In this document: positions 28,411 through 43,073 of the stretch, in pieces
Layout: each line of letters starts with the position of its first letter
Position numbering within the stretch: position 1 is the first letter of the stretch
Origin: Bryoerythrophyllum caledonicum
Taxonomy: Eukaryota; Streptophyta; Bryopsida; Pottiales; Pottiaceae
DNA: 64,000 nt
Reading direction: 5' to 3'
NCBI GenBank assembly: GCA_963971425.1
Contig: OZ020515.1
Coordinates: 34,235,856 to 34,299,855 of the forward strand
Made by a program: the position numbers and the translations under genes
The notes under the pieces: generated by a model
What the model saw: only the letters and a program-made list of their open reading frames with translations
Databases searched by the model: none
What the model was told of the DNA's origin: nothing

Positions 28411-31400
28411 AACCCACACATACACTACACCTATCATACGCCAACACACACCCACACAATATCCAATATATACAACAACTAAACGAACACCCCTCACCAC
28501 ACATCCTATATGCCATAGTAACTACCATCCACCCACACGTAGACGAATGTAACCTCCTATTAAATCAACAAAACCCAAACATAACTCAATGGACCAATAC
28601 ACTACTAAACTCCCTTGCTAATGTACAAAACCCCCCCAAAAGACACATCAACACCCCACACCCCTATATATCATTCATTGAAAATAACCAAAATATTATA
28701 AACCATAAAGCATCAATACATAAAGAACTATATGATTTTATACACAATCATCATATGCCACCATCACAAGAAACTATAAAACAAAAATTTTCATACCTTC
28801 CCAACAAATTAATTATTGAATCACTAAAATGCCTTGACCAAATACCAGAATATACCCATCCACCCCCCCCCACCCCCATACCTACGACCACAAAACCAAA
28901 ACAATAATCCAAATCAAGAAAATACATATATAATCACATGGAATGCCTCCTCTCTTAACACCGCCCTCCCTAGCTTACAAACTCTGGTCACACATACAAA
29001 CACACCGCCAGTCATTATAGTTATACAAGAAACAAAACTATCCGCCACAAAATCCACAAAACATATACAAAACTTATTTCACGACTATAAACTCATTTTC
29101 AACAATACACACGCACTTACTAGATGTATTCAACAACGGAAACCATACACACCGGGACGCGGTGGTCTCCTTACACTAATACATAAAAAATACGCTTTCC
29201 CGAGCAACATCAAAAAAATCCCCACCTCAATGCACATATCCCCTTACCTTCAAATAATCAAAATCACTAATTACCCACTACAACCATGGCTAGTCCTTTA
29301 CATGTATATGCCATCTTACCCCGAAGATACTAGATTCATTAATGACATACAAAACACTATCACATCTCAAATAAATAACAACCCCAATCACACATACATA
29401 CTATGCGGAGACTTTAATAGAGATATAGCGTTAATTGGACGCCAAAACGGAAACCATAGTACCACCCCCAAACCATAGACTACCAATGGCGTCACTTCAC
29501 AGAAAACTTAAACCTCACATACATAAAAACTGATACACAATTCTCTAGACAAGGCGGCTACAATTATAGCGATTGGAGTCTAATAGATGGATTTTATATA
29601 AATACCAACAACAATACACAATATACCTCTACAACAAACAAGGATGTTATTCTCAACTCGGACCACACACCCATACATTTACACATACCAAATAACACCT
29701 TAATTAATAGAACACCCACAATCCTAAACAATGACACTATACGCATACTCAACCCCATCCCAAAAGACAACTTAGAAAAATTCAACACAAAATTCTTTGA
29801 AGAACAATCCATGCTAATAGACTCCCTCTTAAATACTCTAGAAAATAACAATCAACTACCACAAATACAATGGCAAGAAGCATGTGAAATCCTAGATACA
29901 CTCATCAAAGAAATCTCTAACACACTAGAACAAACTTGTAGAGCCCATCCAACACCCCAGTTAACAAACAGAACATCTCAACAAAGAGGATATCTACCAC
30001 GAAAACTCTCTAAAACTTGGAAACAACATCTCACTACATACCATGTTATACGGAAAACTATAAGACTGGTAAAAAATAACTCTCAATGGCGCAACCACCC
30101 CATATGCAATGAACTACTAACTCTACAACATACCCAAATTCCCACCCCACCGCCCCCGGATATGCCCCACGATACATGGATAAATGATATCGCACTAATT
30201 GCAAAAAATGCCAACATACAAGCCAGAAAAATAACCTCAAAACACACCAAAGATAACATTAAAAAAACCATCTCGAAATATAGACACATATATGAAATTA
30301 GCCCTAAGAAAATTAACAGAAAAGTCTTTAAGAATCTAGAATCCCCACCACTAAATTGCATCACAGATCAATTCAATAATATTCTAACTAGCCCCGAAGA
30401 CATTGCAAATGAAATATTCAACCAACAAACAAAAACCAATAGACCAACAATACCAACATGTAACTACCAACCACAACATCAAAACAAATGTACATGTGAA
30501 GTACGCCAATACCCATGGCATGACCTAGATGGATTTACCCTGGACAAAAGAGGCGAGCCAGAAATTCCACTACATCTATACCTTATTAAAGCCACGTAAG
30601 ACACATGCCTTCAAAATCCTGGTAACAACAAAGCCCCAGGCCCAGACCGCATACCAAACTCAATACTCAAAAACATGCCTCCAAGGTTTTATAAATTACT
30701 ATTCCTATTCTTCTCTCACTGCTATAAACAAAAACAGATACCGACCTCATGGAAATCAAGTGCAACAATTTTACTATACAAAAAAGGTGATCCATCTATA
30801 CTATCCAACCATAGGCCAATTGCACTAGCTAACACAATATACAAACTCTTCACCAGTACACTTACCTCCATACTACCCTCATACGGTGAAAAATTCAAAA
30901 TCCTACACGATAGTCAAGAAGGATTTAGAGCAGAGAGAAGCACCGCCCGACAAATACGAACCATAATAGCCGCACTAGAAGACGCAAAATTCACTAACCA
31001 TGATATATTCATATTATACGTTGATTTTAAAAACGCCTTTGGCTCAATAGATCATGCCCGACTACTAACAATAATGATTGACCTTGGCTACCCAAAAGAT
31101 GCAACTACACTTGTAGGAAACATCTACTCCCAATCATCCACCTACTATATTGGTGAACATTTTGGGAAAACAAAACCTATACCCATACAAAGAGGAACCA
31201 TACAAGGGGACACCCTTAGCCCATATTTATTCATCATATTCTTAGAACCAATACTTAGATGGCTAGAACGAGGCAACAACGGATACACGTTTGGTACCTC
31301 ACAAGTCACAATAAACTCTGCCGCATATGTAGATGACCTCGCCGTCATAACTAACAAAATCCAACATATACAAATACAACTAAATAAAATTGATAGATAC

Positions 31401-34400
31401 TGTAAATGGGCCGGTATGGACGTAGGTGTCCCAAAATGTGCCGCTACCGGATGCCCAAATAAATCCAAATTAAACCCTACCACTTTCAAAGCCCTAATGC
31501 AAGCCTCGAACATCAATTACCGCAACCAACCGATCCCCATACTACACCAAAATGAACCATACATATATTTAGGTACAAACCTTGTTCCCTCACTAAAATG
31601 GAAAATCCAAATCCACACCACAACGACGAAACTCATCAAACAATGCAAAGAACTATCAACATGCCCAACCACCATGAAACATAAAATAAAAATGGTTGAT
31701 ACCGTATTACGCCCAGGCATGGCATACAGTTTCTACAGTGTACCATACTCTATGCCAGCTATCAAAAAACTTGATAAAAAATAATAGCCATACAAAAAAC
31801 CATATGTGGATTACCAAAATGTATGTCAAACGCAATAACCCAACTACCACATAACCTATTTGGACTAGAAGTTTTCTCCCTCAAAAACGCATACCTCCGA
31901 TGTATAGGCAAACAACTGTGAAATGCTTTAAATGATAAAGAAAGACTTGGGAAAATATATAATGGATTAACTCACTATGCCCTTGCCCTATATGATGGTG
32001 CCAAAAATATACCAAGAATTAAAAAAAGTGATTGCATAAGGTCACCGATAACACGAACATTCTTCTTATTAAAACATATAGCTAAAGCCCACCTTAGAAG
32101 TACACTCCCAAACTTCCTCATTAATCCTGCAACACTAGAAATAATATGGCGCCAAGAAACACTAAATCATAACACACTCAATGCCCAACTCTCCCAAAAG
32201 CTCCTACAAAAACTCCTCTCAAAAAATATTTTTGAACTAAATCAAATTACTTTACCTAACGGCACATACATCATGAACAATGAGGATTTCAAAACCTGCC
32301 ACTTCACCCCATCTAAACTAATAAAAAGTGCCCTAAATGTTGCTAAACAACTATTTTGCCACTCAACATGCCCCATTACATGTCATTCTCCTTGCAACAT
32401 ACACCCATACTCTCATATACTTAAAGATCCATTCACCACCCTCAACAGTAACATCATCCCAATAAATATTCCTACACCAACCAATCGCCCTAATCCTCCA
32501 CATACATACCACCCCCGCCCCCCAACACACATTCCCAAAAATCCTAATACATATCCCATTAATAATATCATAAGCCATAAACATATCCAACACACAGACA
32601 CAAATAATATAAAAAATACATACACAAAATATTTATGCCAATGGCAACACAATGATAACACATACAATAAATGGCTTTCCCAAAGAGACCTATTTCCACG
32701 ACATGACATCAACACCTCCACACATAACACAGAAAAACTAAAACAATATTACCAAAAAATTCAAAACAAAACATACTCGGATATCATACTAGCACACCAC
32801 CCCCAAGAACAATTCTCAGACTCAAGATCCGTAACACCACCCATGATTATCCCTCTCTTAAACATCCACACAACAGAATGCAATCCCGAAAATGATATCC
32901 TCACATCATCAAACACAATCCAAATAATTAACAATCAAGCACATCTATACGAAGAAAATGGCCGACATTTACACACCATCCCCGTTACTAGACTCCAATG
33001 GTTATGGAATCAATACAATATAAAATTACAAACTCCTACAAACATTGAACCAACGACCCAACCCTTTGAAACCGAAATAATCTGGCTACACCAAAGATAT
33101 AAATACCGAATACCAAAAATTGACCCCCTAAAAAATATGCAATACACAATACCCACTCCCATCTTAGACTCATTAATCACATCCTTCAACATTGAACAAG
33201 CATACTTTTCTTCCCCGGTCACATGCTCTACCAAACTAAAAAAATTCTACTCACCCTACGAAAGAGATAAAATATTCGGATCCCTAGGAAAGGCCTTTGA
33301 CTATAAATGGATCGGTAAAGGTATAGCTCACCTCCACAACGAGAAAGATATGGAACAAGCAATACATTGGGCTCGACTTGCCGCCATACACGATCCAAAA
33401 AACACAAATACAATAATCATCACACCGAACAACAATTGATATCAAAACAACAACTAACATTTAAACCCATTTTCAGATTCCCATATCATTGCAGTATTTG
33501 AGGCAGACACAATACCATACGAAGAACCTACTATCCCACCCGAACTAAAAAAACCCCGAATCGAGCCATCAACATTACAAATACTATGCGTCCATCATCA
33601 ACCTCAAACCTTAGGTTCCCTAGAACAACTTGCCGAACTTACCACCATAACAAACAATTTAAACATACACCGAATATAAACAAAATTGGCCCCACCAACA
33701 CCCATACAAACCCCCGTAAATAAAAGTAAAAAATGGTTAAAACTAAACTATGTCAACAACACATTAAACTACTCCCTCACACCTCCCCCTCTCCCTGACT
33801 ACTCAACTCACACCACACCAAAGTTTAACCCTGCACACAGTTATTACACCGATGGCTCCTTTAAACCACCCGAACAAATTAGCCCGAGATTTTGGCGCAG
33901 AGAAAAAGCTGGCTATGGCATATATAATTCTACCAAGGAAATTAAACTAGCCAAAAGACTCCATGGACTACAAAATATCCTTAGAGCAGAACATGGCCAT
34001 TCACAAAACACTACAAATCATCACAACAAAATACAACAATGAACCCGCACATATATTCATCGACTGTATAAATGCACTTTACCTACTTAACACTCAAATA
34101 ACACACCCTACCCTTCACAATAGCCACCCCGACCAAACAATACTAACATCAATGGTACAAATGTTACAAAACCGTACACAAATCACAACCCTTCACAAAG
34201 TAAGAGCCCATGCCAACATTGATGGCAACGAACAAGCAGACAAACTTGCAAAAGAAGGCCGAGAAAAAACACACAAAAATGCCAAAGACCCGCATGAACA
34301 TGCCCATGCCACCCCATACTACTTTCAAAAAGAAGATTGGCCTTCCAAAGAAGATACCCCCGACAAAGGCCCAATTAGATTTTTGGGCAAATATCTCTAA

Positions 34401-35330
34401 AAACAAGACCTCTACAACAACCTCGACACAATCTCAGAAAATATTCCTAACATAGAAAAATGGACTAATAATAATGACATAGACAATGAACTCTCTACAA
34501 ACTTTTGGAAAAATCCCATCATTTCAGACTCACAAATAACATGCATCATCAAATTCCATACTGGTCAATATATGGGAAACGCTCGCAAACAACTCTTCTT
34601 TGGAATAGAAAGATTCCCATCCATAACATGCCCCATATGCCCCTCAACGGACCCCGACACATGGCTCCATGTTCTACTCAAACGCCAAAACCACCACATA
34701 CACTCTCTAATTGTTAAAAGACATAATAAAGCGGTATGGGAAGTCCGCAAACTAATCACCTCCTACAATAAAACGAGATGTTTCATACTAATGAATGCCG
34801 GCACTTTTAATAACAATCCACAAGAAAATACGGTCCCCCCTTGGCTACTCCCATGCTCATGTATGACCCAAAGATGTCATTGCAACGCTAGGCTCAAACC
34901 AGACATCCTTTGTGTTAAAGGTTTACCATATAATGGCCCACCACCCGATAACATCAACCTAGAATACACCATTCAATTCATTGAGTTCACATATTGCAAT
35001 GATAGATTTTCCCCGGAAACAATCCAAAATAAAATAGATAAATACCAACCCCTTATTGACGACATCACCGCCCTAGGATGGAATGTCGACCCCCTTATTG
35101 TAATCACATCCGGCGCTCGTGCCACCACCTTTATCCCATCTATGAAATCTCTTGAAGATACCTTCAAGATACCCATTGAAACAATTAAAACCTCCTTTAA
35201 AAACATTGACACCATTGCTACTCAATATGCCATATCCATTCTCTACATAAACGGAAAATCGAAAACAATCAAGCCCTCCCCGATACACAGGACCCCCCTT
35301 AAATTTTTTCCCCGCCTTGATTTATCATGA
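28240..35330 (+). pseudogene. LINE ORF2 polyprotein: APE, RT, RNase H, CCHC, REL-like
   Basis: APE domain 28930-29700: TWNASSL, VIQETKL, CGDFNRDI and LNSDHTPIHLHI give the AP-endonuclease catalytic residues. Reverse transcriptase 30620-31780: NNKAPGPDRIPN, STARQIRTI, YVDFKNAFGSIDH, GTIQGDTLSPYLF and the catalytic AYVDDLAV. RNase H 33840-34260: YYTDGSF, FIDCINALYLL and RAHANIDGNEQADKLA. A CCHC-type knuckle follows (CPIC...TWLHVLLK); its last cysteine is arginine here but cysteine in the 62.5-kb relative. The C-terminus (34890-35270) has KPDIL, QFIEFTYCND and NKIDKYQPL, resembling the PD...D/E...KxxKY core of R2-type restriction-like endonucleases. Frame changes occur near 28865, 29470, 31785 and 33990, with stops at 30597, about 31918, about 33437 and 34400. 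The sense strand is strikingly poor in G. Confidence 0.85.
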
Positions 35331-35439
35331 CTAGTTGGTTTTGAGGTTTCTTGATGAATTGCTTGATTTGTGGTTGGTTTGTTGCCTTGTTAATTAGTTA
35401 GTGGCTCGTGGGTTGGTTTGTGGTTCCTTGGCTACTTGT

Positions 35440-35575
35440 TACATAGTGTCTACCCTCGAGAGAGGGAAGTAGTTCCAGTTTACTTATTCCTTGTCCTGTG
35501 GGCATGGTCTTAGTAGTGGAACGAACAAACACTTTATTCACGCCGGTCCCCTTCGGGAACCGGCGTTCTTCTTCT
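35440..35575 (+). other. LINE 3' tail ending in (TTC)n, shared with the SINE
   Basis: This segment contains 'ctcgagagagggaagtag', 'tagtagtggaacgaacaaa', 'cactttattcacgccggtcccc' and ends 'gttcttcttcttc'. It aligns along its whole length with the minus-strand tail of the SINE at 40496-40630. In LINE/SINE pairs the shared 3' end is the signal recognised by the LINE reverse transcriptase, so this is the likely template-recognition region. Confidence 0.8.
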
Positions 35576-35583
35576 TCAAAAGT

Positions 35584-40482: not shown

Positions 40483-40495
40483 TGTGTTTTGACCA
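40483..40495. repeat. Target-site duplication of the SINE, left copy
   Basis: TGTGTTTTGACCA here and TGTGTTTTTACCA at 40747-40759 flank the SINE exactly: 13 bp with one mismatch. This is the length expected from LINE-mediated insertion. Confidence 0.9.
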
Positions 40496-40746
40496 AGAAG
40501 AAGAAGAACTCTGGTCCCCGCAAGGGGCCGGAGTGAATAAAGTGTCTATTCGATCCACCACTAAACCAATGTCCACAAGACATAGGTTTAGTAGTGTGAA
40601 ACTACTCCCTCCTCTAGAGGATAGGCAAATGGATGCAAGATTGGAACTTCTCGGTAGGTCACCCATCTCAAAGTTCCGGCCCAAAGGCGCTTACCATCAA
40701 AGTTCTGATAGTATGTGGTGTAGTAGCCTTGGTATGATGGCATTGC
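40496..40746 (-). mobile_element. 5S-rRNA-derived SINE with LINE-related tail
   Basis: The head (40746-40631) follows plant 5S rRNA from end to end. Matching words in order include ATCATACCA, CATCAGAACT (here TATCAGAACT), TAAGCG...TTGGGC (A box) and GATGGGTGACCT..CGAGAAGTTCC (C box), closing TGCATCC against 5S TGCACCC. The tail (40630-40496) is homologous to the 3' end of the LINE at 35440-35575 and ends in TTC repeats. A 13-bp direct repeat flanks the element. The internal 5S promoter would allow RNA polymerase III transcription, and the tail would recruit the LINE machinery. Length is 251 bp. The head is diverged from canonical plant 5S, so the copy or the family is not new. Confidence 0.88.
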
Positions 40747-40759
40747 TGTGTTTTTACCA

Positions 40760-42763: not shown

Positions 42764-42793
<30 letters not shown>

Positions 42794-43073
42794 CTTCTTC
42801 TTCTTCTTCTTCTTCTTCTTCTTCTTCTTCTTCTTCTTCTTCTTCTTCTTCTTCTTCTTCTTCTTCTTCTTCTTCTTCTTCTTCTTCTTCTTCTTCTTCT
42901 TCTTCTTCTTCTTCTTCTTCTTCTTCTTCTTCTTCTTCTTCTTCTTCTTCTTCTTCTTCTTCTTCTTCTTCTTCTTCTTCTTCTTCTTCTTCTTCTTCTT
43001 CTTCTTCTTCTTCTTCTTCTTCTTCTTCTTCTTCTTCTTCTTCTTCTTCTTCTTCTTCTTGTTGTTGTTGTTG
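42764..43073 (+). repeat. Uninterrupted (TTC)n microsatellite, about 99 units
   Basis: A pure TTC run from 42764 to 43060, then about four GTT units. The purine strand is (GAA)n. Runs of this length can form triplex DNA and are unstable. The position, at the end of a LINE fragment whose family ends in TTC repeats, suggests expansion from the LINE tail. The long open frames across it are poly-Phe, poly-Leu or poly-Lys artefacts. Confidence 0.98.

Follow-up and report, generated by a model that had tools for sequence, protein, structure and literature searches.

The 250-base element analysed here, located in a 64,000-nucleotide stretch of plant DNA (the whole stretch being referred to as the window), is very probably a single chimeric retrocopy in which a 5S rRNA copy is joined to the 3' end of a LINE, and which has the look of a SINE, no SINE family having been found for it. 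This high confidence applies to chimeric retrocopies as such, irrespective of whether the joining took place by a template jump of the LINE reverse transcriptase or by ligation. What can be read directly from the sequences is the presence of two parts, a single duplication enclosing both, junctions that are variable on the LINE side and near-constant on the 5S side, and several LINE subfamilies as parents. A SINE is thought to originate when a reverse transcriptase joins a LINE tail to a small RNA, and usually only the winners are visible; the approximately 30 fusions of 5S to one LINE lineage in one plant genome described below show the sites at which the template would have been changed.

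Structure of the window element and of a LINE of the parental type

The features are as follows, with positions given with respect to the window:

40628 to 40746, minus strand: 5S rRNA copy (head); Rfam RF00001, 38.7 bits; 81.5% identical to the array 5S
40496 to 40627, minus strand: LINE 3' end including a short (TTC)n tail; 90.4% identical over 135 bp to the 5S-less LINE copy L006
40483 to 40495, no strand: target-site duplication beside the TTC tail; 12/13 identical to 40747-40759
40747 to 40759, no strand: target-site duplication beside 5S nucleotide 1; 12/13 identical to 40483-40495
At least 28828 to 35577, plus strand: decayed LINE of the parental type; Pfam matches and the 3' end at 35447-35577
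28828 to 29475, plus strand: endonuclease of this LINE; Pfam
30600 to 31781, plus strand: reverse transcriptase of this LINE; Pfam
31922 to 33436, plus strand: PCIF1_WW-like stretch of this LINE; Pfam, 39.4 bits (cut-off 31.1)
33951 to 34397, plus strand: RNase H of this LINE; Pfam

The earlier note had described the locus as a SINE with a minus-strand head derived from 5S rRNA, new to the window and bounded by exact 13-bp duplications. The head is confirmed, being a full-length 5S that runs in sense from nucleotide 1 (= 40746) to ...CATCCATT, with RF00001 aligning along its entire model (1-120) at 40630-40745 of the minus strand (gathering score 38, E = 1.9e-4); no other Rfam RNA, a second 5S included, was found at gathering score within the window. 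Comparison with the host array 5S gene over 119 aligned columns revealed 21 substitutions and a 3-nt gap, and the stretch from the A box to the C box, taken at their usual 5S positions, is recognisable although mutated. The unit also bears the marks of target-primed reverse transcription in the form of a TTC tail (approximately 40496-40508, the LINE and TTC piece together measuring 132 bp) and direct repeats. The 13-bp duplications are thus present, but not as an exact match, with 12 of 13 positions being identical between TGTGTTTTGACCA and TGTGTTTTTACCA.

As for novelty within the window, this does not extend to the 3' half, to which positions 35447-35577 of the plus strand are 76% identical over 131 bp. 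That stretch is the 3' end of the decayed LINE copy listed above, which shows similarity to other LINE copies over approximately 700 bp upstream. Elsewhere in the genome, sequence similar to this 3' half occurs at many places without a 5S head, and 22 of the 32 tail copies compared, over an upstream extension of 700 bp at most, share 200-700 bp more upstream sequence with others, the remaining ten not doing so. One of these 22 is the window LINE itself, the upstream open reading frames of which match endonuclease, reverse transcriptase and RNase H. The reading of the tail as the body of a tRNA-derived SINE was ruled out on this basis, considering that 22 of 32 tail copies extend upstream toward LINE open reading frames. 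In the 437-Mb assembly, a 26-nt signature of the LINE 3' end has 4,613 matches when up to 2 mismatches are allowed, as opposed to 0 for the reversed pattern. The same assembly yields 75 matches to GRAS transcription factors, as opposed to none in 14 control genomes; as GRAS genes are indicative of land plants, the host is very probably one of these.

The last 130 nt of the LINE can be folded into a consensus RNA structure in which 96.7% of cells are paired over 20 copies, a score that is raised by construction, the alignment that yielded the fold having also been used to test it; 7 of its 33 pairs are changed on both sides (22 cells, with a mean of 7.3 after shuffling). It is at the 5' base of this folded domain that the LINE part of the window element is 5'-truncated.

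Cassandra, a TRIM, was considered as a candidate identity for the locus and ruled out based on the lack of a second 5S at gathering score, the LINE 3' end and the duplication of 13 bp; Cassandra duplications are short, at approximately 5 bp.

Further observations concern the window LINE and its surroundings. The PCIF1_WW match, corresponding to a domain that occurs in cap m6Am methyltransferases, sits between the reverse transcriptase and the RNase H, an unusual position inside a LINE, and a title-level literature search turned up no report of this domain within LINEs. An array of (CTT)99 with 100% matches is located at 42764-43060 in the sense of the LINE tail, and no LINE 3' end was found ahead of it in the window.

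Census, duplications and junctions of the fusions

The count of 5S copies is based on 40 scored of 83 head candidates (7 of these 40 being 5S genes on small contigs), on a whole-element search and on two gapped patterns. Thirty-four dispersed 5S places were compared, including the window copy and L047, the latter retrieved by the whole-element search. Twenty-eight of them continue in sense orientation into LINE sequence, four (L019, L037, L074 and L075) lie within another repeat of more than 1 kb, and two (L025 and L032) run into unassigned sequence. The LINE region joined is the 3' end in 26 of the 28 fusions and the open reading frame region further upstream in the other two, L018 and L077. 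The gapped patterns retrieved 15 places genome-wide, namely 12 known ones, L109, L110 and one judged to be a chance match, bringing the fusions to a total of 30. Both additions score below the Rfam gathering score: L109 aligns along 5S with 29 differences in 122 positions, its head being strongly diverged, and L110 carries a partial 5S identified by reading. Since 12 of the 14 true pattern places were already known, the 28 fusions represent roughly 86% of the pattern-detectable set, corresponding to an estimated total of approximately 33, or approximately 0.7% of the 4,613 signature matches. The heads range from 100% 5S identity, and thus fresh, to old, and the whole 5S 5' end is present in 29 of the 30 fusions. 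No 5S head was encountered among the first 30 LINE ends in positional order, several of which are near-identical duplicates (230 bases upstream were read, with an Rfam search for 27).

Target-site duplications were scored in 27 fusions, with L018 left out. A duplication abutting both 5S nucleotide 1 and the TTC tail was detected at a score of at least 6 in 24 of the 27, as opposed to 1.5% of swapped-flank controls, and at a score of at least 8 in 22 of the 27, as opposed to none of the controls. The three fusions in which it was absent are L023, L029 and L077, the first two of which carry very long TTC arrays. These data bear on the possibility that a LINE was inserted just downstream of a pre-existing 5S gene or pseudogene, which would account for the simple adjacency of 5S and LINE and is in line with the existence elsewhere of 5S copies that lack a LINE. 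A later LINE insertion would, however, duplicate only the bases flanking the LINE, and this possibility is therefore rejected on the position of the duplication, which encloses both parts as a unit in the 24 fusions indicated above; also against it is the constant orientation of the 5S, which is in sense at the 5' end of the LINE in all 28 fusions compared. We consider such an insertion to be barely credible.

On the 5S side, the fusions begin at nucleotide 1 and, in 27 of 28 cases, extend to the 3' end of the 5S or just beyond it, the exception being L072, in which the 5S ends at nt 107. A clear 3' extension of the 5S is present in at least five fusions (L021, L022, L024, L073 and L078) and resembles the downstream flank of the L019-type repeat, while L027, L034, L058 and L076 contain a few extra bases following the 5S that are possibly of LINE origin. 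On the LINE side, a hand count yielded at least 20 distinct junction points in 28 fusions. One point is common to the window copy, L033 and L047, and another to L058 and L039. By eye, a few junctions contain 1-3 added bases; the addition of non-template bases at jumps has been described (Bibillo and Eickbush 2004, as cited in PMC6740152).

Seven of the 28 junctions, that of the window copy included, are located between -4 and +2 nt relative to TGTCTA, the sequence found at the LINE domain's 5' base, a clustering for which p = 0.001 is indicative only, the positions having been set by hand, the interval chosen post hoc and the null being uniform over 135 nt. Headless short LINE copies with duplications, as judged by eye, begin at the same domain base. 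Also by hand count, 14 of the 28 fusions join at or upstream of this base, keeping the domain whole or nearly so; with the entire LINE 3' domain retained in about half of the fusions, these are therefore structural proto-SINEs.

Several individual places deserve separate mention. The headless copies of approximately 130 bp (L044, L046, L048, L052, L060, L069 and L107) begin at nearly one base (AGTCTAYCC), where the folded 3' domain has its 5' base, and possess TTC ends and, by eye, duplications; they may represent a minimal SINE-like derivative of the LINE. In L018, a 5S copy of 100% identity lies between a LINE reverse transcriptase fragment upstream and a part extending from RNase H to the 3' end downstream, an arrangement that may reflect a long fusion located inside another LINE. 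In L077, a LINE 3' end is located just upstream of the 5S, placing this fusion in or beside another LINE copy. The dispersed repeat of more than 1 kb (L019, L037, L074 and L075) carries a 5S gene with its own 3' flank, the 5S of L019 being 100% identical to the array 5S, and could be Cassandra-like. The 5S genes listed on contigs C829 and C410 are spaced 17.3-17.5 kb apart, while usual tandem 5S units are much narrower. This spacing had suggested that the 5S might be part of the 45S rDNA unit; no rRNA match was obtained in C410:11000-22234.

Relatives of the window copy

The earlier note had regarded the locus as a SINE. Were it a member of a genuine SINE family with a 5S head (a plant SINE3), the family would derive from one master that Pol III transcribes using the 5S promoter and that is copied by the LINE machinery. 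The layout expected of a SINE3 is indeed present, in that the element combines a 5S head containing the internal promoter region with a 3' part shared with a LINE and a duplication, and its junction point recurs in two other copies. A single master with a common junction between head and body is, however, not what was observed: the supposed SINE body is the 3' end of a LINE, and 5S copies join at the many points described above to LINE parts from several LINE subfamilies. The genome search for copies that the earlier note had suggested retrieved no family with boundaries at 40496-40746, and shared boundaries that differ from these, which the same note had set beforehand as evidence against a SINE, were found among other 5S-headed copies. 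The two copies with the junction point of the window element, L033 and L047, carry LINE parts of other subfamilies, and the head substitutions in common with the window copy amount to one each (C95A and C112T). A close sister of this element was likewise not encountered, the best copy spanning both halves being 78% identical among the 40 scored of 2,018 candidates; its head is related to 5S genes, to separate fusions or to another repeat, and its tail to LINE 3' ends. What the fusions do exhibit is the arrangement expected of chimeric retrocopies made by a LINE reverse transcriptase, with one duplication surrounding both parts, the small RNA placed 5' in sense orientation and the LINE truncated variably at its 5' side.

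Decay of the two halves is unequal, and this is in favour of a family. The LINE part of the window copy differs from its subfamily consensus at 11 of 128 positions (the consensus being based on 30 LINE rows, of which L054 and L070 are misaligned) while the head differs from the present-day 5S at 21 of 119 positions (Fisher p 0.04), making the head approximately twice as decayed, as if it had evolved prior to insertion. A single capture predicts comparable decay of both halves, and the observed inequality counts against such a capture unless a variant 5S served as template; the more decayed head would be accounted for by such a template or by an earlier period spent as a short-lived SINE. Taking both sides into account, membership of a SINE3 family is considered very unlikely, and the reading of the locus as a single chimeric retrocopy is retained.

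Whether the fusions are related to each other was assessed by a nearest-neighbour comparison in which the LINE parts of 28 fusions (26 earlier ones together with L109 and L110) were set against 73 LINE ends as well as against one another. The nearest relative of the LINE part is a LINE end without 5S in 26 of 28 cases by bit score and in 20 of 28 by percent identity (mostly over shorter stretches). Another fusion is nearer by percent identity in eight cases (L010, L023, L024, L033, L036, L038, L073 and L110) and by bit score in two (L010 and L078). Because part of the LINE set had been retrieved by querying with the tails of fusions, the comparison is biased towards LINE neighbours in the case of the window copy, L021 and L076, and searches of the genome therefore constitute the better test. 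In such searches, each of the 39 other places listed for the LINE part of L021, the head of which is 99.2% identical to 5S, matches that LINE part at 99% identity, and no known fusion occurs among them; the six of these neighbours that were read share non-5S sequence upstream. Likewise, the LINE part of L076 is 92-95% identical to 39 other listed places, none being a known fusion; ten were read, none of which is 5S-headed, and the LINE mostly continues upstream in these. From this pattern we infer that each single fusion represents an independent event, and the fusions would usually have been dead ends. Possession of the parts of a SINE, this suggests, is not enough for an element to become one, and for annotation purposes the co-occurrence of a 5S head, a LINE tail and duplications at one locus should not be equated with a SINE family.

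Proposed mechanism and comparison with known systems

Based on these comparisons of genomic sequence, it is likely that the LINE reverse transcriptase jumped from LINE RNA to 5S rRNA, and that it did so repeatedly and independently, approximately 30 times. Target-primed reverse transcription would start at the (UUC)n end of the LINE RNA, following which the LINE reverse transcriptase would copy the folded 3' domain and leave the LINE template at the 5' base of this domain. Synthesis would then resume on the 3' end of 5S rRNA and run to the 5S 5' end, and the chimeric product would be integrated between the 13-bp duplications. The position of the junctions and of the headless starts at the domain base suggests either a pause of the enzyme or a broken RNA at that place.

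The jump itself, as opposed to a joining of RNAs before reverse transcription, is what we infer from the above. In the alternative scenario, an RNA ligase joins the 5S RNA to the LINE RNA and the joined RNA is then retrotransposed, which would leave products identical to those of template jumping. Ligation is compatible with a junction that coincides with the 3' end of the 5S RNA in 27 of 28 fusions, at least five of these RNAs being clearly 3'-extended, and ligation and template switching are given as alternatives for U6/L1 fusions in PMC13174262. The junction of L072, which lies inside the 5S, speaks against ligation, as do the seven of 28 junctions at the folded-domain base, where headless copies stop, a coincidence that fits a pausing and jumping enzyme; neither argument is decisive. 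Ligation is held to be rather improbable, and template jumping remains the preferred mechanism.

In a further-reaching form of the template-jumping mechanism, the LINE would repeatedly and preferentially capture 5S, with the folded 3' domain as preferred point of departure and 5S, including 3'-extended forms that resemble those of the dispersed repeat carrying a 5S gene, as favoured landing site, and the genome would keep making proto-SINE3s. This extension is doubtful; if true, it would provide a natural series for asking what makes a fusion a spreading SINE.

A retropseudogene of 5S rRNA in Dictyostelium, SINE-like and generated by LINE template jumping, was reportedly described by Szafranski et al. 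in 2004, going by the title of that work, which is cited in PMC6740152. On that description it resembles the present fusions, in which 5S is likewise joined to a LINE; here, the host is very probably a land plant, 30 fusions were compared and a cluster of junctions occurs at a folded LINE 3' domain.

In mammals, chimeric U6/L1 and 5S/L1 insertions are known, with 27 human 5S/L1 fusions catalogued (PMC13174262). They similarly consist of a small RNA and a LINE within one duplication, the U6 fusions being full-length sense copies that mostly fail to propagate further; human 5S/L1 fusions, by contrast, are typically antisense and truncated, while those described here are in sense with an entire 5' end in 29 of 30. 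The LINE concerned also differs from L1 in being TTC-ended and in possessing a folded 3' domain. The WEIRD-MGL chimeras (MINEs) of the rice blast fungus, where 33 bipartite fusions mostly combine an abundant non-coding RNA with a LINE, are comparable in that preferred switch sites lie close to predicted hairpins, but the RNA captured there is WEIRD rather than 5S, and the site motif proposed there is a GCC triplet (PMC2104539). The SINE3 element HaSE3 of Helicoverpa possesses, as here, a 5S head and a tail in common with another retroelement, a template-switching origin being proposed for it, but it constitutes a family with a consensus (PMC3272025), no such family having been found in the current work.

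Among plant elements, SINEs derive from tRNAs according to a review (PMC9033089). Cassandra TRIMs resemble the present fusions in placing a 5S promoter on a plant retroelement, with the difference that the 5S is there inside paired LTRs (PMC10853983 and PMC10886601), while here a LINE 3' end comes after it and 13-bp duplications flank the unit. A search of the literature by titles and abstract openings, with thin coverage of subscription journals, retrieved no report of plant 5S-LINE fusions.

Concerning other RNAs that might be captured by this LINE, no Rfam family was detected at gathering score in 58 LINE-end loci without 5S. Sixteen of 38 listed U6 copies were examined, one of which (L136) is a possible LINE junction. 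In this copy, a degraded U6 is apparently joined, by eye, to the last 3' bases of the LINE and a TTC tail, while BLAST flags a LINE stretch only further downstream in the locus; U6 may thus be captured by the LINE as well.
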